From a virus: 23,671 nucleotides of DNA. A model generated the notes under the pieces. It did no database searches. It saw nothing but the letters and a program-made list of their open reading frames with translations, and was not told the origin of the DNA. The stretch's first letter is position 1; each line of letters starts with the position of its first letter. The translations under genes were made by a program, and so were the position numbers. Positions 6,056-15,254 of this stretch are shown piece by piece. The stretch is taken from positions 1 to 23,671 of the IMG/VR virus record IMGVR_UViG_3300025438_000139; one strand, written 5' to 3'.

Positions 6056-6503
6056 TGACTATATAAGTTCCTCCGATAACTTTAAATCCTAATTTAATAA
6101 AAGCCTTATCTTTTCTTTCAACGTCTTTACCTTGAAAGATTTCGCATATCGCAGTTACTTTATTTGCTAGTGCGTATTCTTTAAAAACTATCATTATAGA
6201 ACGAAATATCCTAAAGTTTCTATGTTTAGGATTCACATGTAACCATAAAGTTCTCATGAACTTTTTGTCACTATACCATGTCTCATCAACTGTAGCAGCT
6301 AATGTTCCTATAATAATATTTTCATATTCTACTACTATAACAAAACTATTCTTAATGTAAAATACTATATTCTCTAAAGCTTTAGTATTATTAGTGTTTC
6401 CAAAGTTGAATGGAGCCTCTGTAAGCCACGTTTTTAACAGTTCTCTTATACGAACAGCATCAGATATTCGAGCTGGTCTTATAGTATATTTATCTTTTTC
6501 CAT
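6048..6503 (-). CDS. GNAT-family N-acetyltransferase
   Basis: A 151-residue protein spanning a single GNAT fold. It opens with IRPARISDAVRIRELL, the usual first strand and helix. It continues with FVIVVEYENIIIGTLAA (central strands), LWLHVNPKHRNFRIFRSIM (the strand and helix that bind acetyl-CoA), and ends with the typical KAFIKLGFKVIGGTYIV. The acetyl-CoA pyrophosphate loop is normally (Q/R)xxGx(G/A); here the aligned RNFRIF lacks both small residues, so cofactor binding may be altered. It overlaps the tail-hub gene by 14 nt and the S74-tipped gene by 8 nt, which ties it to late transcription. GNAT genes are common among phage structural genes. The substrate cannot be read from sequence; a virion protein or host protein would fit. 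Family assignment is strong, activity uncertain. Confidence 0.85.
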   Translation of the reverse strand: MEKDKYTIRPARISDAVRIRELLKTWLTEAPFNFGNTNNTKALENIVFYIKNSFVIVVEYENIIIGTLAATVDETWYSDKKFMRTLWLHVNPKHRNFRIFRSIMIVFKEYALANKVTAICEIFQGKDVERKDKAFIKLGFKVIGGTYIVNG

Positions 6504-8334
6504 CTTGTTTTATATTTACTCTTAGTGTACCAAATCTCCAGTTATCTCCAACATTATTATTTTGTATCTTAACATTAGATTGTCTACCACGAATACGTGT
6601 ATTAACGAACCTAGTTGTGTTGTTTACAGTCAAAGTTTCTCCTACTGTTGCTGTATCATTAGGATAGTCTTTAACACTTAAAGTAATTACAGTGTCTCCA
6701 GTTTGATTTTGAAAGTCTGGTATAACTTTATTAATAAAACTAAATGTTTCACCATCAGCAATGTCTCCATCACCTGATTGAATATAAGCTTGTAAAGCAG
6801 AGCCATCAGCATCTACTCCTGATTCTTGAGCATAGATTAAACTTCTACCTTGAGTTAATCCATTAATTGTTGAAATAGTACTTGCGTTAGAAGTAGATAA
6901 ATACTCTGTAGCTAAAGGATTTAAATTAACTCCATTATCTTGATAAGTACTTCTATCCATAGTTCCAAAATACCAAGAGTTTTCTAAATAGTTATAAATT
7001 ACATAACGATCACATTGATCAGAGGCACTTGAACAATAGTACCATATCACTTCAGAGAAGTTAGAATTTTGTGCAGCATAGACTTGAGGATATTGAACTT
7101 TATTAATATCTTCAAATACATGATTTAATATTGGACAAGGTATTTCTTGAACTGATCCAGCATATCTAAAGAATTGTCCATCAGACATCCAGTAAGCTAT
7201 ATCATCTATGACTATCGCAGAGTTAAGACCAACAGCTCCACAGTCGTTACCTAATTGTCTAAAACCAAATATAAAAGGAGGACCTATAAAAGACATTGAT
7301 TGCATTGTAGTATCTGTCCATACTAATATAGTTCCTTTAGCAGGTCTTGCACATCTTATTTCACTTCCACCAGCTATTCTTTGTGATCCCGCAGAGTTAG
7401 TTACATTAGGTGTCCAAAAATTATAATTTTCTTGATCAGACCAACGAATAAACATTTTATCAAAAGTTGTACTGTCTCCAATAGTTGTTTCTGTTCCCAT
7501 ACAGATAACGTGTCTAGTTTCTGTAGATACTAATGATAATGTAGAAGTAGTAGGAGCATTAGCAATAGCTGTAGCTCTATTAGTAGACATTCCTCCTGAA
7601 AGATCCCACTCGTAAGTTCCACCATCTTTTTCTGTTATAACTAAATCTTCACCCCAATTATTGATAGACCATAACCGTGCATCAAGGATTACACTAGATG
7701 TTGATCTAGGTGTTCCCCAAGTAGAAGCACCCCAAGTAGAAGCACCCCAACCATATCCAAAAGTTTGTATAGATGGACCTATATTTAATTGATAAGTAGC
7801 AGTACAATTTGCAGTAGGTCCTACTGAAGAAGTTGCTGTTGCACTACTTTGAATAGTATAAGCATTAACATTTGATATACTTAAAATTTCATATTCACCA
7901 TCTAGTGTGGCTGCAGAAATTCCACCAACGTCAGCACTTACACTACTTAGTGTGACAAAGTCACCTAATAAAGCCCCATGACTTGTATCTGAAATAGTTA
8001 CAACATTACTTGTACTTGTAGTAGTAATAGCATTAACAAGAGCATCTGTTGATCTTATAGGAGTAATATCTTGATTATCTCCAGATTGATATACATATAT
8101 TTTTCTATCAGTTCCTATAGCTTCATAACGAGATCCATCTAAAGAATACCATTGTTCTAAAGCTCTTCCAACTCCTACATAATAATCTGCACTAAATTTT
8201 GTCCAGCCACCTATTTTTTGAGGAAGTCCTTTTCTAAATCTTATTTTATCACCATCTACCCATCTACCTTCTGCTCCTGTAGGAGTATTCTCAGTGTCTA
8301 ATCCAGGTTGAAAGTTTAATTGAGTTAATGGCAT
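6490..8334 (-). CDS. Tail hub / DNA-stabilisation-like structural protein
   Basis: A 614-residue, strand-rich protein that starts PLTQLNFQPGLDTENTPTGA and continues with RWVDGDKIRFRKGLPQKIGGW. This opening is conserved in a large family of structural proteins of short-tailed phages, related in my judgement to the P22 gp10-type packaged-DNA stabilisation/hub proteins. The repeated strand-turn pattern and Trp/Gly-rich blades suggest a beta-propeller-like body. A 5-residue unit (WGAST) is tandemly repeated near residues 196-207. It is the first minus-strand gene left of the plus-strand cassette and shares a 44-bp divergent spacer with it, so it needs its own promoter or readthrough from the right. 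Start chosen at ATG 8334: an AAGG site lies 16 nt upstream inside a motif shared with two other genes. The structural role is confident, the exact name less so. Confidence 0.7.
   Translation of the reverse strand: MPLTQLNFQPGLDTENTPTGAEGRWVDGDKIRFRKGLPQKIGGWTKFSADYYVGVGRALEQWYSLDGSRYEAIGTDRKIYVYQSGDNQDITPIRSTDALVNAITTTSTSNVVTISDTSHGALLGDFVTLSSVSADVGGISAATLDGEYEILSISNVNAYTIQSSATATSSVGPTANCTATYQLNIGPSIQTFGYGWGASTWGASTWGTPRSTSSVILDARLWSINNWGEDLVITEKDGGTYEWDLSGGMSTNRATAIANAPTTSTLSLVSTETRHVICMGTETTIGDSTTFDKMFIRWSDQENYNFWTPNVTNSAGSQRIAGGSEIRCARPAKGTILVWTDTTMQSMSFIGPPFIFGFRQLGNDCGAVGLNSAIVIDDIAYWMSDGQFFRYAGSVQEIPCPILNHVFEDINKVQYPQVYAAQNSNFSEVIWYYCSSASDQCDRYVIYNYLENSWYFGTMDRSTYQDNGVNLNPLATEYLSTSNASTISTINGLTQGRSLIYAQESGVDADGSALQAYIQSGDGDIADGETFSFINKVIPDFQNQTGDTVITLSVKDYPNDTATVGETLTVNNTTRFVNTRIRGRQSNVKIQNNNVGDNWRFGTLRVNIKQDGKR
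7715..7750. repeat. 15-bp tandem repeat inside the tail-hub gene
   Basis: The unit CCCCAAGTAGAAGCA occurs at 7715-7729 and again at 7730-7744, with a partial third copy (CCCCAA) at 7745-7750. On the coding (minus) strand it encodes repeated Trp-Gly-Ala-Ser-Thr. Because the unit is a multiple of three, copy-number change would keep the reading frame. Confidence 0.9.
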
Positions 8335-8378
8335 AGTTTTGTTTTATATACCTTATTTATATCTTACTTATAAATGTA
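8335..8378. promoter_or_regulatory. Divergent intergenic spacer, candidate promoter region for both directions
   Basis: These 44 bp separate the start codons of the minus-strand tail-hub gene and the plus-strand cassette. The sequence is almost pure A/T. On the minus strand it carries TATAAATA (8354-8361) followed by the 10-mer ATAAGGTATA (8347-8356), which supplies an AAGG ribosome site upstream of the hub gene. On the plus strand TATAAA at 8369-8374 ends only 4 nt before the cassette ATG, and no SD site is visible. Any promoter for the plus-strand operon must lie here or further inside the hub gene. The position makes promoter activity necessary for at least one side; the specific boxes are only candidates in such AT-rich DNA. 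Confidence 0.45.
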
Positions 8379-8864
8379 ATGAAAGAGCTAAAAGTAATAG
8401 ATAATTTTCTTGATAGAACAATATTTGAAAAGATACAAAAAATGGTGACGTTTGACTTACCTTATTATTATAAGATAGGGACGGCCTCTCCAAAGTCCGA
8501 TGATCTATATCATTTTGTACATTATTTTTATACAGATAATTCTGTAAAAAGTGATTTTTTTAAAGAAATAGTTATTCCTATTTTAGATAATTTTACTTAC
8601 TATTCTTTAATAAGAGCAAAAGCTAATTGTTACCCTTCAACTGAAAATCAATTTACTCATGCTAAACATATTGATTTACCAGTTCCACATAGAGGCTTGA
8701 TATTTCATATCAATAATAATAACGGCTATACTATTTTAGAAGATGGAACCAAAATAGAAAGTCTTGCTAATCGAGCTGTGTTCCTGGACACCAGCAAACC
8801 TCATCAAAGCACAAGCTGTACTGACCAAGATATACGTTTTAATATTAATATAAACTACGTCTAA
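8379..8864 (+). CDS. 2OG-Fe(II) oxygenase, small phage type
   Basis: A 161-residue protein with the signature of Fe(II)/2-oxoglutarate-dependent dioxygenases: His97-Ile-Asp99 (HxD) in the KHIDLP stretch, a distal metal ligand His142 in KPHQSTS, and Arg153 in DIRFNININ to bind the 2-oxoglutarate carboxylate. GYTILEDGTKI at 116-126 is the usual central strand-turn of the jelly-roll fold. The length is typical of compact phage members. Such enzymes hydroxylate or otherwise oxidise a substrate using O2; the substrate is not predictable here. It is the first gene of the plus-strand cassette, has no visible SD site, and its stop overlaps the next start (TAATG at 8862-8866). Confidence 0.8.
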   Translation: MKELKVIDNFLDRTIFEKIQKMVTFDLPYYYKIGTASPKSDDLYHFVHYFYTDNSVKSDFFKEIVIPILDNFTYYSLIRAKANCYPSTENQFTHAKHIDLPVPHRGLIFHINNNNGYTILEDGTKIESLANRAVFLDTSKPHQSTSCTDQDIRFNININYV

Positions 8865-9355
8865 TGTTAGACCCTATTCCTTTACTAGCTTTTAGTTTTT
8901 TAGAATGGTTTAAAAAACAAGATACTAAAAATTTTAATTTAGTTGAATTTGGATGTGGTAATTCAACAATTTATTTTAGTAAATTTTTTAAAAAAATTAC
9001 TTCTTATGAAGATGATCCCAAATATATTGAATATATAAAAAATTTAAGTATAGCAAATGTAGAAATATTACCTTTTAATTTTAAAACTATTTCAGATTCT
9101 AAATTTAAAAAATCTATTGAAGAAGCACATTATATATTAATAGATAATAACTATAAAAACATATCGAGAGAAGTTATTGCAAAAAATTTAATTGAAATAT
9201 ATGATTACAAAAACCTTTTAATACTTGATAACGGTAACTGGAACCATGAAGCTTATTTTTATTTAAAACAAAAATATAAAAATTCATATGATTTTGGTTG
9301 GCGTAATATTAAAAATGATGAGACAATAACTACAGTTTTTGTAGATAGGATATAA
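8864..9355 (+). CDS. SAM-dependent methyltransferase-like protein
   Basis: A 163-residue Rossmann-type protein. VEFGCGNSTIYFS at about 27-39 is a class I methyltransferase motif I (ExGxGxS). The acidic YEDD at 48-51 sits where the end of strand 2 usually binds the SAM ribose. HYILIDN (89-95) and LLILDNGNW (118-126) are the later strands, and the end ITTVFVDR resembles the last beta-hairpin of the fold. I therefore read it as a compact methyltransferase with no recognisable substrate domain. Its composition is extremely AT-rich even for this window: 23 of 120 bases are G or C at 8941-9060. Start and stop both lie in TAATG overlaps with the flanking oxygenase genes, so it belongs to the same pathway. 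A non-catalytic nucleotide-binding relative cannot be excluded. Confidence 0.65.
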   Translation: MLDPIPLLAFSFLEWFKKQDTKNFNLVEFGCGNSTIYFSKFFKKITSYEDDPKYIEYIKNLSIANVEILPFNFKTISDSKFKKSIEEAHYILIDNNYKNISREVIAKNLIEIYDYKNLLILDNGNWNHEAYFYLKQKYKNSYDFGWRNIKNDETITTVFVDRI

Positions 9356-9888
9356 TGCAAGAACTAGAATTTACTATTGAAAAGAAGGTTAAAATTATCT
9401 CTAATGATATAACGGACATGGATTTATGTAATCGTTTAATAGAAAAAATTAAATTAAATATTGATCCAACATTAAGTTATAAAACAAATGTTCCTCACAT
9501 GACTGCCTTTGAAAGATTTAATAATGATTCTGATTTTAATTCTTTTATAAAAATAATTACACCAGATATCAAAAAAATTTGGCAACGTCCTTTCATTATT
9601 AAAGATTCTTGGGGTGTGTTAATGAATAAAGGAGATTCAACAGATTGCCATTCTCATCAAGAAGCATCGGCTTTTTGTGGTATATTATATCTTACAACTG
9701 GGGGTTCAGGAACAAGTTTTCCAGAAATAAAAAAAGTGATTAATCCAATAAAAGGACGTTTTATTTTATTTGAGGCTATCATGAAACATTTTGTATTACC
9801 TTCTGATGTTGATGAAAGATATAGTTTAGCTTTTAATATGCTTGATATAAAAGATTGGGATGATTCAAATACTTCGGTTGTTATATGA
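9355..9888 (+). CDS. 2OG-Fe(II) oxygenase-like protein (TIGR02466 / 2OG-FeII_Oxy_5 type)
   Basis: A 177-residue protein. DSWGVLMNKGDSTDCHSHQE (about 84-103) followed by AFCGILYL matches the core of the TIGR02466-like group: a Trp-containing strand, then an HxH pair (His99, His101), then the gILYL strand. IKGRFILFEAIMKHFVLP (about 132-149) supplies the distal His145, and ERYSLAFNM the Arg155 expected to bind 2-oxoglutarate. It therefore probably belongs to the same superfamily as the first cassette gene but to a different family. It aligns in pattern with the gene at 11842-12444. An AGGAT site lies just upstream of the ATG, and the last codons overlap the halogenase start (ATGA at 9885-9888). 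The substrate is unknown. Confidence 0.65.
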   Translation: MQELEFTIEKKVKIISNDITDMDLCNRLIEKIKLNIDPTLSYKTNVPHMTAFERFNNDSDFNSFIKIITPDIKKIWQRPFIIKDSWGVLMNKGDSTDCHSHQEASAFCGILYLTTGGSGTSFPEIKKVINPIKGRFILFEAIMKHFVLPSDVDERYSLAFNMLDIKDWDDSNTSVVI

Positions 9889-11297
9889 AAATAAATATTT
9901 TAGGCGCTGGAACAGGAGGATTAGTAACCTCTTTAATTTTAAAAACAAAATTTCCTAATTACAATATTAATATAATTAAATCAGATGATATTGGTATCGT
10001 AGGAGTAGGTGAAGGATCTACGGAACATTGGGCTGAGTTCATGGACTATGTTGGAATAGATTTAAAAGAATTAATTAAAAAAACTGATGCCACACTCAAA
10101 TCAGGTATTATGTTTGAAGGCTGGACTAAAGAAAAATTTCTTCATTCTGTAAACTCTGAATTCAGTAAAGAAACTGGTGATTATTACTATTTGTATGCAA
10201 ATTTAATATCTCGTGAAATTAATGCTAAGTATATGTGCCATCAAAATTTATATGAAAATAAGTTTATTAATCAAAATTATAAAAATTTAGTTTTACAATA
10301 TCATTTTGATACTTTTAAATTAAATAGTTTTTTAAAAAATACTTGTATTAATAAAAATATAAATATCTTTGAAGATAAAATTATTAACGTTGTTAATGAT
10401 GATTTAGGTAATATTAAATATTTAATTGGGGAAAAACAAAAATATATATCAGATCTATTTATTGATTGTAGTGGTTTTTCTAGTTTTTTATTAAAGAAAC
10501 ATTTAAATGTTCCTTACATTTCTTACAAAAAATATCTTCCTTTAGATAGGGCGTTCGCCTTTCCTACTTCTAAAGAAAAACAATACAATGCTTGGACTTT
10601 ATCAAGAGCGATGGATAATGGTTGGAATTGGAAAATACCAACACAAAAAAGGTATGGTAATGGTTATGTTTATAGCTCAAATCATACAACAGAAGAAAAA
10701 GCAATTGAAGAAGTAGAAATACTATATCAACAAAAAATAGAGCCGGCTCGATTTTTTAAATTTGAAGCAGGAAGAGTTAAAACATTTTGGCATAAGAATG
10801 TTGTAGCTATTGGTCTATCAGCCGGATTTGTAGAACCTTTAGAAGCAACTTCTATTGGTAGTATTATTCAACAAGCTTTTTGTTTAAATCAATTTTTACC
10901 TTCACTAGATAAAAAATCTTTTAATAAACATAATGATTATTTATTTACAAATTTAATGGAATTTGTTCAGCTTCATTATTTAACTAAAAAACAAGACACG
11001 TTGTTCTGGAAAGAAATGCAAGAGTTACCTATTTTAGATGGTGTACAAGAAAAACTAGAGATTGCAAAAATAAGAATGATTAGAAACAGTGATTTTACTA
11101 TCGGCTGGCATATGTTTAGAGCTCCTAATTGGATTATTTTACTACATGCATTAAATAAATTTAATATAGAAAATATTAAAAAAGAACTAGATTCAGCATT
11201 ACCTTTAAAATCTTTTGCCATACAACAACATAAGAACTTGTTTACTTCTCCAAAAGATTATATTACACATAACCAGGTAATAGAAAGTTTAATATGA
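9885..11297 (+). CDS. Flavin-dependent tryptophan-halogenase-family enzyme
   Basis: A 470-residue protein. It has the N-terminal FAD-binding GAGTGG (residues 7-12), VGVGEGST (39-46), Lys72 in TLKSGIMFEGW (the position of the catalytic lysine, Lys79 in PrnA), IDCSGF (193-198), the family signature GWNWKIP (246-252), and GFVEPLEATSIGSI (314-327) with Glu320 at the position of the catalytic glutamate (Glu346 in PrnA). These enzymes use reduced FAD, O2 and halide to make HOCl or HOBr, which moves through a tunnel to the lysine and halogenates an aromatic substrate. A separate flavin reductase is required and none is seen here, so the host would supply it. Length is slightly below the ~510-530 residues of bacterial tryptophan halogenases. 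Phage members exist (VirX1 of a cyanophage). It overlaps both neighbours by 4 nt (ATGA). Family very likely; substrate and halide unknown. Confidence 0.92.
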   Translation: MKINILGAGTGGLVTSLILKTKFPNYNINIIKSDDIGIVGVGEGSTEHWAEFMDYVGIDLKELIKKTDATLKSGIMFEGWTKEKFLHSVNSEFSKETGDYYYLYANLISREINAKYMCHQNLYENKFINQNYKNLVLQYHFDTFKLNSFLKNTCINKNINIFEDKIINVVNDDLGNIKYLIGEKQKYISDLFIDCSGFSSFLLKKHLNVPYISYKKYLPLDRAFAFPTSKEKQYNAWTLSRAMDNGWNWKIPTQKRYGNGYVYSSNHTTEEKAIEEVEILYQQKIEPARFFKFEAGRVKTFWHKNVVAIGLSAGFVEPLEATSIGSIIQQAFCLNQFLPSLDKKSFNKHNDYLFTNLMEFVQLHYLTKKQDTLFWKEMQELPILDGVQEKLEIAKIRMIRNSDFTIGWHMFRAPNWIILLHALNKFNIENIKKELDSALPLKSFAIQQHKNLFTSPKDYITHNQVIESLI

Positions 11298-11842
11298 AAC
11301 AAATTAGTGACTACATAGTAGTTCAAAATGCATTAGATAAAGATTATTGTAATCATTTAATTACCTCACTTGAACAGAAAAAATGGATTTCCCACCAATG
11401 GTCTAACGACCAGGGTCAAATTGTAGGTTCTAGAAATAATAAAGAATTAGAGATATTACCTGCTGGAGAAGAACAAAAGTTTTTACAAGATGTAATTATT
11501 AAATGTTGTGAGAACTATAAGGCAAAACATAATATTCATTCTTGGATCACAGCTTTAACTACAGTAAGATTTAATAAATATAAAGTAGGTACTAATATGA
11601 ATAGTCATGTTGATCATATTCATTCTATATTTGATGGTAAGAAGAAAGGTATCCCTATAATTTCTGTTGTAGGAGTATTAAATGACAATTATACTGGAGG
11701 GGAATTTATATTTAATGAGGAATATGATATTAAATTAAAACAAGGAGATATTTTATTGTTTCCAAGTAATTTTTTATATTCACATCGAGTAAAAGATGTC
11801 AAAGAAGGTATTAGATATTCTTTTGTGAGTTGGGGTTTTTAA
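11294..11842 (+). CDS. Prolyl-4-hydroxylase-like 2OG-Fe(II) oxygenase
   Basis: A 182-residue protein with a full dioxygenase signature: His105-Val-Asp107 in NSHVDHIHS, YTGGEF at 133-138 (the usual turn after the second core strand), GDILLFPSNFLYSHRV with distal His164, and Arg174 in GIRYSFVSW. The RFNKYKVG run (92-99) just before the HxD is typical of the prolyl 4-hydroxylase alpha-subunit-like (P4Hc) branch. Members hydroxylate protein side chains, including proline in ribosomal proteins and collagen-like sequences, but many phage members have no known target. It starts inside the end of the halogenase gene (ATGA at 11294-11297) and ends in a TAATG overlap with the next oxygenase. All key residues are present, so activity is likely. 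Confidence 0.88.
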   Translation: MKQISDYIVVQNALDKDYCNHLITSLEQKKWISHQWSNDQGQIVGSRNNKELEILPAGEEQKFLQDVIIKCCENYKAKHNIHSWITALTTVRFNKYKVGTNMNSHVDHIHSIFDGKKKGIPIISVVGVLNDNYTGGEFIFNEEYDIKLKQGDILLFPSNFLYSHRVKDVKEGIRYSFVSWGF

Positions 11843-12444
11843 TGAGTGAAATAATAGAATTATTTTCACAGCCTCTTTACCTATCCTCTGATAAATATGA
11901 AATAAATGAAAAAGAAAATGAATGTTTTAAAAATATTGGAGCAGTTTTAAATTCATTAAATTATACAAGTCAAAATAGTTCTTTTTTAGAAAAGGAGGAA
12001 TTAAAAGGTTTAAAAGAATTTGTATTAAAACATGTTTATAACTATCATCATAATTTAATGGGCTTTGATAAAAGAGCAGAGATATATATTACTCAATCCT
12101 GGCTTACCATTAGTAAACCCGGTGAAGGACATCATCTACACCGTCATCCAAATAGTATTTATAGTGGTGTTTGTTATTTAACTGGTGAACATACTGAGAC
12201 ACGATTTCATAGTCCAACTAAGTTATCTCAACAAATAACTTTTAAAAAAGAACAACTCACTCCTTATCTAGAAGAAAATTTAACTGTAACCGCAACCAAA
12301 GGTAATTTAATTATTTTTCCATCTAGTTTAGTTCACGATGTAAAACCTAATCCAAGTGATAAAATAAGAACTACTTTATCTTTTAATACATGGTTCAAAG
12401 GAGAAGCTGGGCAACATGTTGGGTTGGATTATTTAAAATTATAA
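11842..12444 (+). CDS. 2OG-Fe(II) oxygenase (TIGR02466 / 2OG-FeII_Oxy_5 family)
   Basis: A 200-residue protein counted from the ATG at 11842, which overlaps the previous stop (TAATG). A TTG 12 nt further upstream in the same frame is a less likely start. The N-terminus ELFSQPLYLSS is the usual opening of this family. QSWLTISKPGEGHHLHRHPN (85-104) followed by YSGVCYL is its core, with His100 and His102. GNLIIFPSSLVHDVKP gives the distal His165, and KIRTTLSFNTW carries Arg176. The core agrees in pattern with the shorter gene at 9355-9888, so the cassette holds two members of one family. Its stop codon TAA is the beginning of the TAAGGTATA motif that serves the next gene. Confidence 0.85.
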   Translation: MSEIIELFSQPLYLSSDKYEINEKENECFKNIGAVLNSLNYTSQNSSFLEKEELKGLKEFVLKHVYNYHHNLMGFDKRAEIYITQSWLTISKPGEGHHLHRHPNSIYSGVCYLTGEHTETRFHSPTKLSQQITFKKEQLTPYLEENLTVTATKGNLIIFPSSLVHDVKPNPSDKIRTTLSFNTWFKGEAGQHVGLDYLKL

Positions 12445-12450
12445 GGTATA
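12441..12450 (+). promoter_or_regulatory. ATAAGGTATA leader motif before the 73-residue gene
   Basis: This 10-mer overlaps the stop codon of the last oxygenase gene and lies 7 nt before the ATG at 12458. The same 10-mer precedes two minus-strand genes (8347-8356 and 15201-15210 read on the minus strand). The AAGG core is a plausible Shine-Dalgarno site. Confidence 0.6.
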
Positions 12451-12457
12451 AAGTTTT

Positions 12458-12679
12458 ATGGAAATTAAACAAATAAAAAAAGGAAACATAGAATTTAATT
12501 TTTCTTGGAAAGAACGATTGAGAATATTTTTTAAAGGTGGAATGCTTTTAAGTTTTGATACTTCTAAAGATTTTATTAATACTTTCGTTCATACTATTAT
12601 AACTTTCAATGCAAATTTACCTGAAAAGTATCAGAGTAAATTAAGCAATAGTAAAGATATTGATTTAAGTAAAAAATAA
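12458..12679 (+). CDS. Small conserved-looking protein of unknown function
   Basis: A 73-residue basic protein I do not assign to a family. IEFNFSWKERLRIFFKGGML at residues 11-30 is amphipathic, with aromatic and basic residues that could lie along a membrane surface. A hydrophobic helix (FINTFVHTIITFNA) follows at about 39-52, and the tail is polar. Short proteins with a similar FSWKER-like core occur in other marine phages as far as I recall, without known function. It has its own ribosome site (AAGG, 7 nt from the ATG), unlike the coupled genes before it, so it may be expressed at a different level. Its TAA stop directly abuts the stop of the convergent gene. Confidence 0.6.
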   Translation: MEIKQIKKGNIEFNFSWKERLRIFFKGGMLLSFDTSKDFINTFVHTIITFNANLPEKYQSKLSNSKDIDLSKK

Positions 12680-12685
12680 TTATTT
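12674..12685. other. Perfect 12-bp palindrome covering two abutting stop codons
   Basis: AAATAATTATTT contains the stop codon of the plus-strand gene (12677-12679) immediately followed by the stop of the convergent minus-strand gene (12680-12682), with no base between. It is pure A/T and has no loop, so it is not a convincing terminator. No other termination signal is seen between the two converging transcripts. Confidence 0.7.
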
Positions 12686-13426
12686 ATAAGTTTTACGATG
12701 CCAAATCTTATTTTTGTACCAGTTAAATTTTTCTGTAAGCATACTTCCTGGAACAGATTCATCACCTTCTTCTATTTTCATCTTCCAACCTTCTCTTTTG
12801 AATGGAATAATTTGACAATAAGGAGTTCCTTTTTTAAGGATCGAAAAATACTTTCCATCTTTCATGTTTTTAAATAAAAAATCTTTTTTTAAAAAAAATG
12901 GAAAGTTTATATATGGGCCGTAGGAGTCCGTATCTACGACAGCACTAATAATTTCAAACCTATCATCTACTTGATTTAAAGGAGGGGTAAATAAACATGA
13001 ATAACCAGAAGGTGTTTCTATTTTCCAAGGATTAAGAAATTTCATTACAGGAAAATTAAAGTTTTTTTTAAGTTGAGGAGACCCTTCTATTTGAAAAGGT
13101 TGGTGTGAAGATGCTGCCATATCTAAATTTAGATTTATATCTTTGTATCTTGAATTACCCGCAAAACCTATATAACTGGATCGAACATGAATTTTATATT
13201 TATCTTTTTCTAAGGTTGTTATTTCAATGTAATATTCTTGAGGTAAAGTTAGAACATAACCAGCTGTCATTGAATCCATAACTGGACGACAACCTTTAAT
13301 AGTTTCTTTATTAGGATGGTGTTTAAGTTTTTTATACCAATCAGGTAAATGATTTAAAGACAGTTCAGGTCTTTCTTCAAAATTATCTATATAAATTTTA
13401 GGAGCAATAAATTTTATGTCTTTCAT
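12680..13426 (-). CDS. Conserved phage protein of unknown function (DUF6065-like)
   Basis: A 248-residue protein. The N-terminal LPDWYKKL (27-34), then KGCRPVMDSMTAGYVLTLPQ (44-63), the middle FLNPWKIETPSGYSCLFTPP (130-149), VVDTDSYG (163-170) and KKGTPYCQIIPFKREGW (198-214) form a pattern I associate with a family found in marine phages and some bacteria, close to DUF6065; the exact family is from memory. No catalytic motif is evident. It is the last gene of the rightward minus-strand block and converges with the plus-strand cassette. In other phages such genes sit near 2OG oxygenases, so a link with the cassette is possible, though it is on the other strand. Its start codon lies in an inverted repeat shared with the previous stop codon. 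No strong SD is seen at normal distance. Confidence 0.6.
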   Translation of the reverse strand: MKDIKFIAPKIYIDNFEERPELSLNHLPDWYKKLKHHPNKETIKGCRPVMDSMTAGYVLTLPQEYYIEITTLEKDKYKIHVRSSYIGFAGNSRYKDINLNLDMAASSHQPFQIEGSPQLKKNFNFPVMKFLNPWKIETPSGYSCLFTPPLNQVDDRFEIISAVVDTDSYGPYINFPFFLKKDFLFKNMKDGKYFSILKKGTPYCQIIPFKREGWKMKIEEGDESVPGSMLTEKFNWYKNKIWHRKTYK

Positions 13427-13451
13427 AAGAAGGCATAATACCCCTTATGAA
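13422..13451 (-). promoter_or_regulatory. Stop/start inverted repeat between 13445-13903 and 12680-13426
   Basis: TTCATAAG (13422-13429) and CTTATGAA (13444-13451) form a perfect 8-bp inverted repeat with a 14-nt loop. On the minus-strand RNA the 5' arm contains the UAA stop of the upstream gene and the 3' arm contains the AUG of the downstream gene. The hairpin could mask the start codon until a ribosome terminates on the upstream gene. Confidence 0.55.
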
Positions 13452-13903
13452 GGTATTTGCAATATGTGAAATATTTCTACTCCAGGGTTTAAAGAAGCTA
13501 CATACTGTGGAGGAAAACCTGTAAAAGTTGTATCATCTGAAGTCTGTTCCGCTGTTTCTTTAGCTATGTTTAAAAGTGTTCTGTAAGATAAAAGTCTATC
13601 CCTCATTGTAGAAGGTTTACTGCCTTCTAAAAAAGAATCAAAAGAGTATACTTCTGCTTTACACTGTTCAATAAACAATGTTTTAGATTGTGTGGGCTGA
13701 GGTAAATCTACTAAAATAATATTGTCTTTAGTAGCACCTTCTGCGATTGTTTTTGTGTTTCCAACAATTGCATCGTAGTCAGCTTGAGTTAATGTTTTTT
13801 TAACTAAAGTGTCTCCAGAGTTTGTTTCTACAGAAGTAGCATCAGCATCATCTTTTGCTACTCTCCAAACTTGATCATCTTCTCTAAGAAATATACTTAC
13901 CAT
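13445..13903 (-). CDS. Putative tail-fibre assembly / chaperone-like protein
   Basis: A 152-residue protein just downstream of the tail-fibre gene (9-nt gap, SD AGGA). The N-terminal half has short strands and acidic turns (VWRVAKDDADATSVETNSGD). The C-terminal part carries MRDRLLSYRTLLNIAKETAE (about 99-118) followed by FTGFPPQYVASLNPG. A YR-type helix followed by an aromatic/Pro-rich segment resembles small phage tail-fibre assembly chaperones, in which a YRxxLR helix precedes a FPxxxxWPxxP stretch; here the match is partial. The position directly after the fibre is the usual one for such chaperones. An alternative is a minor virion component. I regard the function as inferred. Confidence 0.45.
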   Translation of the reverse strand: MVSIFLREDDQVWRVAKDDADATSVETNSGDTLVKKTLTQADYDAIVGNTKTIAEGATKDNIILVDLPQPTQSKTLFIEQCKAEVYSFDSFLEGSKPSTMRDRLLSYRTLLNIAKETAEQTSDDTTFTGFPPQYVASLNPGVEIFHILQIPS

Positions 13904-13912
13904 CTTTTAATC

Positions 13913-15193
13913 CTATGTTATTTGTTCAAATATATAAATATAACCATCACCACCAGCAGACGATGAAGCAGGGGTACCTGTGCCTTGTCCTCCAATTGAT
14001 AAAAACTTTCTACCAACGGAATTGCTATTATTACTGTCATTACCTCCAGTTCCTGGAGAAGGAGGAGCAACGTTGGTTGTACTTGGTGAAAAATCTGTTG
14101 TACTATAATTAAATATGCCGCTTGTGTTTGTGGTTCCAACCGAAGCTCTTGGACTACCAGGCGTATGTGGATAAGCACCTCCGCCTCCACCTCCTGCGTT
14201 TACAACGTTTCCAAAATTTGAAGTACCGCCTGCTTGGCCAGCTACTCCTGAGGCACCGCCACTTCCGCCAGTTCCAACTTGAACAGCCGTTCCCTCTAAA
14301 GTTCCCGGGGAAACATCAATCGCATATACACCAAAGAAACCATGACCACCCGGTCTTGCACCTGCTCCTTGGTTTGAACGGCCACCGCCGCCACCTCCTC
14401 CAGAAATTATTCCAGAAGCTTTTGTAGCATTGGTATCAGTTGCAGAGTAATTAAAACTCTGTGAACCTGTTCTAAATTCTGTTATTGAGTATCCCTCAGC
14501 TCCACCAGCAGCTCCAGTCGATGCTGCAGTAAGTCTACCTTGACCATCTACAGTTACTGAGGCAAGTGTATAAGAACCTGCAGTCACTGCAGTGTTTGCT
14601 AATTTGTCAGCTGATACTGCAGCATCTGTAATTTTTGCTGTAGTTACAGCATTAGCTGCAAGTTTAGCAGTAGTTACATTTGCATCTAAAATTTTTACAG
14701 TCGTTACTGCATTAGCAATAATTTTTCCAGACGTTACTGCATCGTCTGCTATTTGTGCACTTCCGATCGTTCCACCTAAAGTATCTAAAGATATTTCAGT
14801 AATGTTAGTTCCATCAGAATAAGCTGCATAAATTTTTGCTGCATCTGGAGTAAACCCAGTTCCACTTACAGTTTTAATTGTTAAATTACCTGGATTAGTT
14901 AAACCACTACAATCAAATATATAAAATTTTTCTATACTGTCTGGTATAGTGCAAATTGTACTTGCTGCAATACTTGCAGTAGCAAATTTAATTACCATAT
15001 TTCTTGCAGTTGATATTGATTTATTTGTCATTGCAAGAGCAAGAGTACTACCACTTGATAACGTGATAGCTTCATAACCAGCAATTGCTTGTTGAATTAA
15101 ATTTAAATTATTATTTGTATCATCACCCCAAGTACCAGAAGCATCACCAGTTGCAATTAGTTCAAGTTTTAAATCAGAAGAATAAGTTGACAT
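13913..15193 (-). CDS. Tail fibre with glycine-rich adhesin C-terminus
   Basis: A 426-residue protein. The N-terminal ~140 residues (MSTYSSDLKLELIATGDASG, TWGDDTNNNLNLIQQAI) match the virion-attachment domain of many marine phage fibres. Residues 151-200 are five 10-residue repeats (NAVTTAKITD-like), a fibrous shaft pattern. VTVDGQGRLTAAS (213-225) is a common shaft-to-head linker. Residues 264-420 are dominated by Gly runs (264-271, 308-314, 334-339, 401-406), as in polyglycine-sandwich receptor-binding domains such as the gp38 adhesins of T-even-like phages. Aromatic and polar loops between the Gly runs (YPHTPGSPRA, FNYSTTDFSP) would contact the receptor. It follows the WG-motif protein and is preceded by the ATAAGGTATA motif. 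Fibre role confident; adhesin fold inferred from composition. Confidence 0.85.
   Translation of the reverse strand: MSTYSSDLKLELIATGDASGTWGDDTNNNLNLIQQAIAGYEAITLSSGSTLALAMTNKSISTARNMVIKFATASIAASTICTIPDSIEKFYIFDCSGLTNPGNLTIKTVSGTGFTPDAAKIYAAYSDGTNITEISLDTLGGTIGSAQIADDAVTSGKIIANAVTTVKILDANVTTAKLAANAVTTAKITDAAVSADKLANTAVTAGSYTLASVTVDGQGRLTAASTGAAGGAEGYSITEFRTGSQSFNYSATDTNATKASGIISGGGGGGGRSNQGAGARPGGHGFFGVYAIDVSPGTLEGTAVQVGTGGSGGASGVAGQAGGTSNFGNVVNAGGGGGGAYPHTPGSPRASVGTTNTSGIFNYSTTDFSPSTTNVAPPSPGTGGNDSNNSNSVGRKFLSIGGQGTGTPASSSAGGDGYIYIFEQIT
14594..14743 (-). repeat. Five 10-residue shaft repeats in the tail fibre
   Basis: Codons 151-200 of the fibre encode five degenerate repeats with consensus (D/N/A)AVTTAKI(x)(x), each 30 bp long; a partial sixth (TAVT) follows. 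The amino acid pattern is clear, while the DNA copies have diverged. Confidence 0.8.
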
Positions 15194-15254
15194 AGTTTTT
15201 TATACCTTATTAATTTATATTTGTAAATAGTATATATTTGTATGAATTTGTACA
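15194..15254 (-). promoter_or_regulatory. AT-rich leader of the tail-fibre gene
   Basis: This 61-bp gap is long for this window. Read on the minus strand it ends with ATAAGGTATA (15201-15210), 7 nt before the fibre ATG, giving an AAGG ribosome site. Further upstream ATTTGTA occurs three times on the plus strand (15219-15225, 15236-15242, 15246-15252). Promoter-like TATACT and TATAAA strings are present but are expected by chance in such DNA. A promoter that boosts the fibre is plausible, not shown. Confidence 0.4.

Follow-up and report, generated by a model that had tools for sequence, protein, structure and literature searches.

A phage cassette of oxygenase, halogenase and methyltransferase genes that appears to travel with a tail-fibre tip, its candidate substrate

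Phages encode enzymes that modify their own virion proteins, for example by glycosylation. Two further groups of phage enzymes are already known separately: the clusters of oxygenases of the 2-oxoglutarate (2OG)-Fe(II) type in HTVC023P-type phages, and the viral flavin-dependent halogenases, such as VirX1 of cyanophage Syn10 and the enzymes of P-SSM2, S-H38 and HTVC008M. Wittmers et al. 2022 (PMC9599517) reported co-located, non-orthologous 2OG-Fe(II) 'partner AMGs' (auxiliary metabolic genes) in HTVC023P-type pelagiphages, often beside so-called ferrochelatases, and judged these 2OG genes to be of insufficient length, and too expanded, for phylogenetic analysis. Here we describe a locus that unites both enzyme groups in a marine phage, IMG/VR virus record IMGVR_UViG_3300025438_000139, whose whole 23.7-kb stretch (the window) was analysed. 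Seven plus-strand genes, c1 to c7, form a cassette at 8379-12679 between minus-strand virion genes. Its relatives indicate that the cassette moves between distant phages in one block with a tail-fibre tip, and adhesin type predicts where such enzymes occur. The enzymes may chemically tailor the tip. The features concerned are:

8379-8864, plus strand: c1, small Fe(II)/2OG-type oxygenase (phrog_274, E=2.7e-37)
8864-9355, plus strand: c2, predicted minimal class I S-adenosylmethionine (SAM) methyltransferase (AlphaFold2 (AF2) model with a mean predicted local distance difference test score (pLDDT) of 86)
9355-9888, plus strand: c3, PF13759-type Fe(II)/2OG oxygenase of the HxH...H form (PF13759, E=8.4e-9)
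9885-11297, plus strand: c4, flavin-dependent halogenase (Trp_halogenase PF04820, E=3.6e-97)
11294-11842, plus strand: c5, Fe(II)/2OG oxygenase (PF13640, E=2.7e-12)
11842-12444, plus strand: c6, PF13759/TIGR02466-type Fe(II)/2OG oxygenase (PF13759, E=4.3e-20; PDB 3bvc and 2rg4)
12458-12679, plus strand: c7, protein of 73 amino acids (ratio of non-synonymous to synonymous substitution rates (dN/dS) 0.03-0.16)
12680-13426, minus strand: F, DUF6065/phrog_7084 protein (phrog_7084, E=1.8e-38)
13445-13903, minus strand: G, fast-evolving protein of 152 amino acids between fibre tip and F (dN/dS 0.3-0.9)
13913-15193, minus strand: H, tail fibre with a glycine-rich tip (residues about 203-426)
6490-8334, minus strand: E, virion/stabilisation protein, the conserved flank of a hypervariable site (phrog_3287, E=1.8e-84)
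8163-15221, no single strand: the co-transferred block, whose right end is 14553 or 15221 depending on the relative

The locus shares its lineage and its neighbouring 2OG-Fe(II) genes with the system of PMC9599517, but it adds the halogenase, the methyltransferase, DUF6065, c7, a kept gene order and co-transfer of the tip; a term search of that text returned neither a halogenase nor a link to the tail fibre. The halogenase c4 belongs to the same enzyme family as the viral halogenases named above and is 35-44% identical to those of S-H38, P-SSM2 and HTVC008M. Oxygenase genes adjoin the halogenase in S-H38 and HTVC008M as well. The viruses carrying VirX1 and its three counterparts are, however, large T4-like phages, in which we saw neither the gene order of the cassette nor the block of fibre tip, G, F and c7. 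The nearest cellular halogenases, with 29-35% identity, are tryptophan halogenases of Brevundimonas, Sphingomonas and Alteromonas, encoded at loci linked to TonB receptors, SapC and cupins. These too adjoin surface-related and cupin-fold genes, but they come without a cluster of small 2OG oxygenases (present at 2 of 71 loci), and DUF6065 accompanies them only in one phage-like contig. With virion glycosylation the cassette shares its proposed logic, differing in the predicted oxidation, halogenation and methylation and in the linkage to a fibre tip. Our literature search, thin in subscription papers, found no description of a fibre-linked, co-transferred set, in agreement with the view of the original prediction that only the parts had been described.

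The coordinates of the open reading frames (ORFs) confirm the layout first read from the window, a seven-gene plus-strand cassette that splits the minus-strand virion genes and is held together by short overlaps. These measure 1 nt (TAATG-type) at c1/c2, c2/c3 and c5/c6 and 4 nt (ATGA) at c3/c4 and c4/c5, while c6 and c7 are spaced by a 13-nt gap.

Relatives of the cassette were reached by a scan with c2, then a scan with F, then an alignment of closely related halogenases; a scan with the window halogenase alone, by exact peptide patterns, returned only its own virus and missed relatives of 73-84% identity. In this way the cassette was found in five further viral populations (L319/L324/L407; L320; L321; L322/L323/L403; L325/L404/L405/L406), two of which (L320 and L321) are truncated where their contigs end. 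Across the five, the genes mostly retain their order, their orientation relative to E and their overlaps. Two viruses have an extra oxygenase between c5 and c6, and c2 is absent from one variant (L325/L405), where c1 directly adjoins c3. Against the other viruses, c1 to c7 gave dN/dS values of 0.03-0.36, none near 1, which are rough because synonymous sites are partly saturated; they indicate purifying selection on all cassette genes, including c7. Thus the genes are neither a single occurrence nor a randomly ordered assortment, and none appears relaxed. Recurrence, kept order and purifying selection together support the dedicated multi-gene modification set that the original prediction had proposed.

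The similarity between these viruses is sharply bounded. The block from H through G, F and c7 to c1 is 47-86% identical in the five populations (F 70-79%, G 47-72%, and the H tip 58-70% in L324, L323 and L405), against 25-50% for the flanking virion genes (E 39-42%, I 25-32%, J 41-50%, K 29-30%, N 32-38%). At the nucleotide level, blastn aligned the window with L324 over 8163-15221 at 77-80% identity and with L323 over 8195-14553, and beyond the block gave isolated short matches only. Wherever the H tip could be read in a cassette virus, it falls within the block; in L323 and L405, where a gene of its own encodes the fibre-tip domain, the similarity stops at that domain. Because the block is far more alike than its flanks, the tip, G, F and the enzymes appear to have moved as one unit between distant phages. 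The first reading of the window had overlooked F, G and the H tip (12680-15193, minus strand) as members of this unit, and the GNAT and glycosyltransferase-like genes it had mentioned are flanking genes outside the block.

The enzymes also follow the type of adhesin. Of the loci with E, 53 have a glycine-rich adhesin, a class partly defined by composition, and 33 a laminin/DUF7483 adhesin; oxygenases or halogenases lie between adhesin and E in 48 of the former and in 0 of the latter. In the subset with E at least 75% identical, the counts are 37 of 41 and 0 of 2, respectively. On a tree of E, built quickly and with long branches, nine independent contrasts were available; eight pointed in the same direction and none in the opposite one (p about 0.008). 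By these sequence comparisons, adhesin type predicts the presence of oxygenases and halogenases.

The carrier is an HTVC023P-like podovirus, as judged by its capsid protein (52-57% identical to those of HTVC023P/HTVC027P) and E (39-40%); the layout of its virion genes is the same. HTVC023P-like isolates infect Pelagibacter, which is the probable host of the window's virus. We surveyed the interval between fibre and E in 80 IMG/VR contigs with E 80-98% identical, together with the window's own virus. Among contigs reaching far enough, this interval differs nearly always, being occupied by varied runs of small genes on either strand. The original prediction had spoken of a cassette inserted into a structural operon; rather than a unique event in a fixed operon, the site proves to be a hypervariable slot of the lineage. 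In HTVC023P-like phages the slot is usually filled with oxygenase genes, as in the isolates HTVC023P and HTVC027P themselves, and further halogenases occupy it in L008, L068, L070 and L082. The 132 non-redundant slot proteins share two histidines that hardly vary, and no other Pfam families are matched nearly as often as those of the 2OG type.

Three other kinds of protein were seen in such slots and clusters. NodU-type carbamoyltransferases recur in fibre-linked clusters (L070 6106-7752; L068 8237-9751; a 609-aa ORF in L128) and are a possible further tailoring activity. The pelagiphage 'ferrochelatases' (phrog_2954/3531; HTVC023P, L087, 7295-7915; L005 1028-1669) have an invariant HxD in 16 of 16 sequences and a distal histidine, and so look like oxygenase-fold proteins, which would weaken the published idea of a heme-iron partner for the 2OG genes. 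A conserved slot protein of 167-171 aa (L019 6106-6609; L054 2477-2980; probably phrog_1644, 'minor coat protein') has a 2OG-like end that lacks the usual histidines and is perhaps a dead oxygenase fold.

To view the halogenase from outside this lineage, 80 viral halogenase loci were collected with the halogenase alone as query; marine viral contigs hold at least 598 confirmed halogenase matches. An oxygenase lies within three genes of the halogenase at 63 of the 80 viral loci versus 2 of 71 bacterial ones, and one of these two (L173) is probably phage. Oxygenases make up 44% of the genes adjacent to viral halogenases, a share that drops to 6% at distances of ten genes or more; the density of glycine-rich adhesins around the same 80 loci showed no such falling gradient. 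The commonest non-oxygenase neighbour is F, found within four genes at 23 of the 80 loci, or at 27 when its distant relative is included (profile link, Prob 93%). Conversely, 77 loci were fetched by F alone; in 76 of them an oxygenase lies no more than three genes away, 55 have a homologue of fibre H and 56 a c7 homologue. Therefore F seems central to the fibre-oxygenase module, and the halogenase an optional part of it. No c7 homologue occurs at the 80 halogenase loci, so that the distribution of c7 follows the DUF6065/fibre module and not the halogenases.

Some of the collected loci are unusual. At L107, L108, L118, L163, L167 and L170, two to four halogenase ORFs lie in one oxygenase-rich cluster, and several of them may be fragments of one gene. 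L173 (6643-10194), binned as a gammaproteobacterial metagenome-assembled genome, has two 2OG genes, a halogenase and a DUF6065 gene in a row, and the contig is probably that of a phage.

The family assignments of the original prediction, namely a halogenase, a methyltransferase-like protein and four oxygenases, are borne out, with HxD in c1 and c5 and an HxH...H variant in c3 and c6. The halogenase c4 appears intact by all catalytic landmarks: G7/G9/G12 (GxGxxG), K72, G246-W247-W249-I251-P252 (GWxWxIP) and E320 are invariant in one halogenase alignment (A2), and the landmark residues are also kept in another (A4). Its PDB relatives are of the PrnA/RebH type, and its dN/dS is 0.09-0.23. Both c1 and c5 carry what read as the HxD/E...H iron ligands of the Fe(II)/2OG oxygenase superfamily. 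For c1 (dN/dS 0.04-0.18 across five populations), a Pfam search gave zero matches; HxD is present in 11 of 11 members of its family, and its phrog_274 relatives show the consensus HxD...H...R. The family of c5 (dN/dS 0.09-0.33) has HxD/E in 38 of 38 members, and c5 itself resembles PKHD-type PiuC/YbiX hydroxylases, with a match to 3dkq (PiuC) and one to PRK05467 below the cut-off. Although c3 (dN/dS 0.04-0.36) and c6 (0.13-0.27) match PF13759 above the cut-off, their family has HxH in place of HxD in 34 of 35 members, so their metal site and use of 2OG are less certain. For c2 (dN/dS 0.09-0.17), searches of families and of the phage collection gave no match. Methyltransferases lead the list of PDB fold matches to its model (MnmM/COMT and other SAM methyltransferases, best E=5e-6), and motif I (VEFGCG/VEFGAG, E/DxGxG type) and the acidic E49/D51 after strand 2 are conserved. 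The modelled Rossmann-type fold and motif I together point to a class I SAM methyltransferase.

PHROG and GenBank label phrog_274 proteins (c1; L003, L091 and other phage records) 'DNA endonuclease V'. Because its members conserve HxD...H...R, this label is probably wrong, and the proteins look like Fe(II)/2OG oxygenases.

The match of F to the DUF6065 family of Pfam (PF19541) stayed below the cut-off (E=0.0042); its AF2 model (pLDDT 81) has weak fold matches to dUTPase. A true dUTPase was considered and rejected, the profile match being partial (46 columns) and the fold matches weak. DUF6065 proteins of phages and haloviruses (window 12680-13426; L253 6830-7672) have a predicted dUTPase-like beta-clip fold, and their genes tend to adjoin fibre or tail genes. 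In a halovirus, the F homologue is convergent to genes downstream of a baseplate gene. Most DUF6065 loci have a gene for 140-168 aa at the position of G, and our literature search found no published work naming DUF6065.

The G+C content of the cassette (8379-12679) is 26.3%, and that of its flanks is higher, 30.8% and 34.1%. Scans for promoters and terminators gave site numbers not above those in shuffles, and a search of NCBIfam profiles gave zero matches above the cut-off for any part.

From these data we infer the following scheme. The products of c1 to c7 would be the enzyme half of a tail-fibre-tip module made up of the H tip, G, F and c7-c1. Late in infection, the oxygenases would hydroxylate or otherwise oxidise side chains on the glycine-rich tip or on G, c4 would halogenate and c2 methylate side chains of the same proteins, and F and c7 would probably serve as adaptor or assembly factors. 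The receptor-binding surface would thereby bear chemistry that is not genetically encoded, with a benefit for host attachment or for escape from receptor change. We give an even chance to the proposition that the enzymes tailor the fibre tip or its partner G. The original prediction had offered three targets, a free aromatic metabolite, side chains of a virion or host protein, and a short peptide. Co-transfer of the tip and the predictive value of adhesin type for the enzymes lead us to favour the virion protein, specifically the fibre tip; the host protein, the free metabolite and the short peptide are less favoured. Several observations weigh against a fibre-tip substrate. Flavin halogenases of the c4 family mostly act on small molecules or peptides, and physical linkage alone would yield co-transfer. 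The H tip of the window virus has no tryptophan, and adhesins of halogenase-bearing loci show no enrichment in tryptophan or tyrosine. An enrichment in histidine and proline, tried as a substrate signature, gave a raw signal that was not significant in the tree-based test. Only 29 of the 80 halogenase loci have a glycine-rich protein within eight genes. Finally, the laminin loci come mostly from more distant phages, and at 31 of the 33 the E protein is less than 50% identical and the laminin protein served as the query, so that the adhesin contrast leans on the tree.

The enzymes might instead act on a free aromatic metabolite such as tryptophan or on a host-derived compound, aiding infection or harming competitors, with proximity to the fibre being incidental. 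The closest solved proteins to c4 are indeed small-molecule halogenases of the PrnA/RebH type, a SAM methyltransferase with oxygenases is a usual tailoring set, and the characterised cyanophage halogenase VirX1 is cited in PMC10452541 as iodinating diverse substrates. We nevertheless hold this unlikely, as the cassette lacks a scaffold-building gene, the same slot is used by other oxygenase sets without a halogenase, and both the co-transfer of the tip and the link to adhesin type would be left unexplained. That link, and the hypervariability of the slot, would be accounted for equally well if the enzymes changed the host surface or a host protein, for instance the receptor, against superinfection or re-adsorption to debris, for the shared receptor would then tie enzymes to adhesin. 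Cytosolic enzymes using Fe(II)/2OG and reduced flavin adenine dinucleotide (FADH2), with no evident signal sequences, are however badly placed to reach an outer-membrane receptor, and we rate this possibility as rather slimmer than a small-molecule substrate.

Gene content varies even among phages with E 80-98% identical, as would be expected if the fibre-E slot were a recombination-prone hotspot gathering unrelated auxiliary genes, such as 2OG oxygenases tuning the host's 2-oxoglutarate or nitrogen state, a role proposed for phages, and if the cassette were carried along as a selfish or generic element; publications usually assign such genes a role in host metabolism (PMC10611076). Yet almost all slot genes encode oxygenase-fold or other tailoring enzymes, so the content is not random; such genes are absent beside laminin adhesins, and the order of the cassette has held over large phage distances. 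We consider a mere hotspot improbable, slightly more so than modification of the host. Action on nucleobases of the phage genome is the least credible, and we think it very improbable. TET-like 2OG enzymes and methyltransferases do modify DNA in other phages, and F has a dUTPase-like predicted fold, but F matches dUTPase profiles over just 46 columns, no role for a halogenase in such a pathway is known, and the genes sit beside fibre genes rather than replication genes.

Tailoring of the fibre tip would have a wider implication, which we put forward tentatively and with somewhat less than even confidence: a mobile, combinatorial form of post-translational tailoring, in which cassettes of oxygenases, halogenases and methyltransferases are swapped between phages along with the fibre tip on which these enzymes act. 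If so, not only sequence but also chemistry would diversify receptor binding, with halogenated residues in the virion as one outcome. The halogenases and 2OG oxygenases of marine phages are usually filed as metabolic genes without a known substrate, and linkage to the fibre tip offers a concrete candidate for each of them that can be tested. An existing SAR11 phage isolate would allow the oxygenase part to be tested now through proteomics of its virions. If this reading is right, phages vary host recognition through enzymatic side-chain chemistry.

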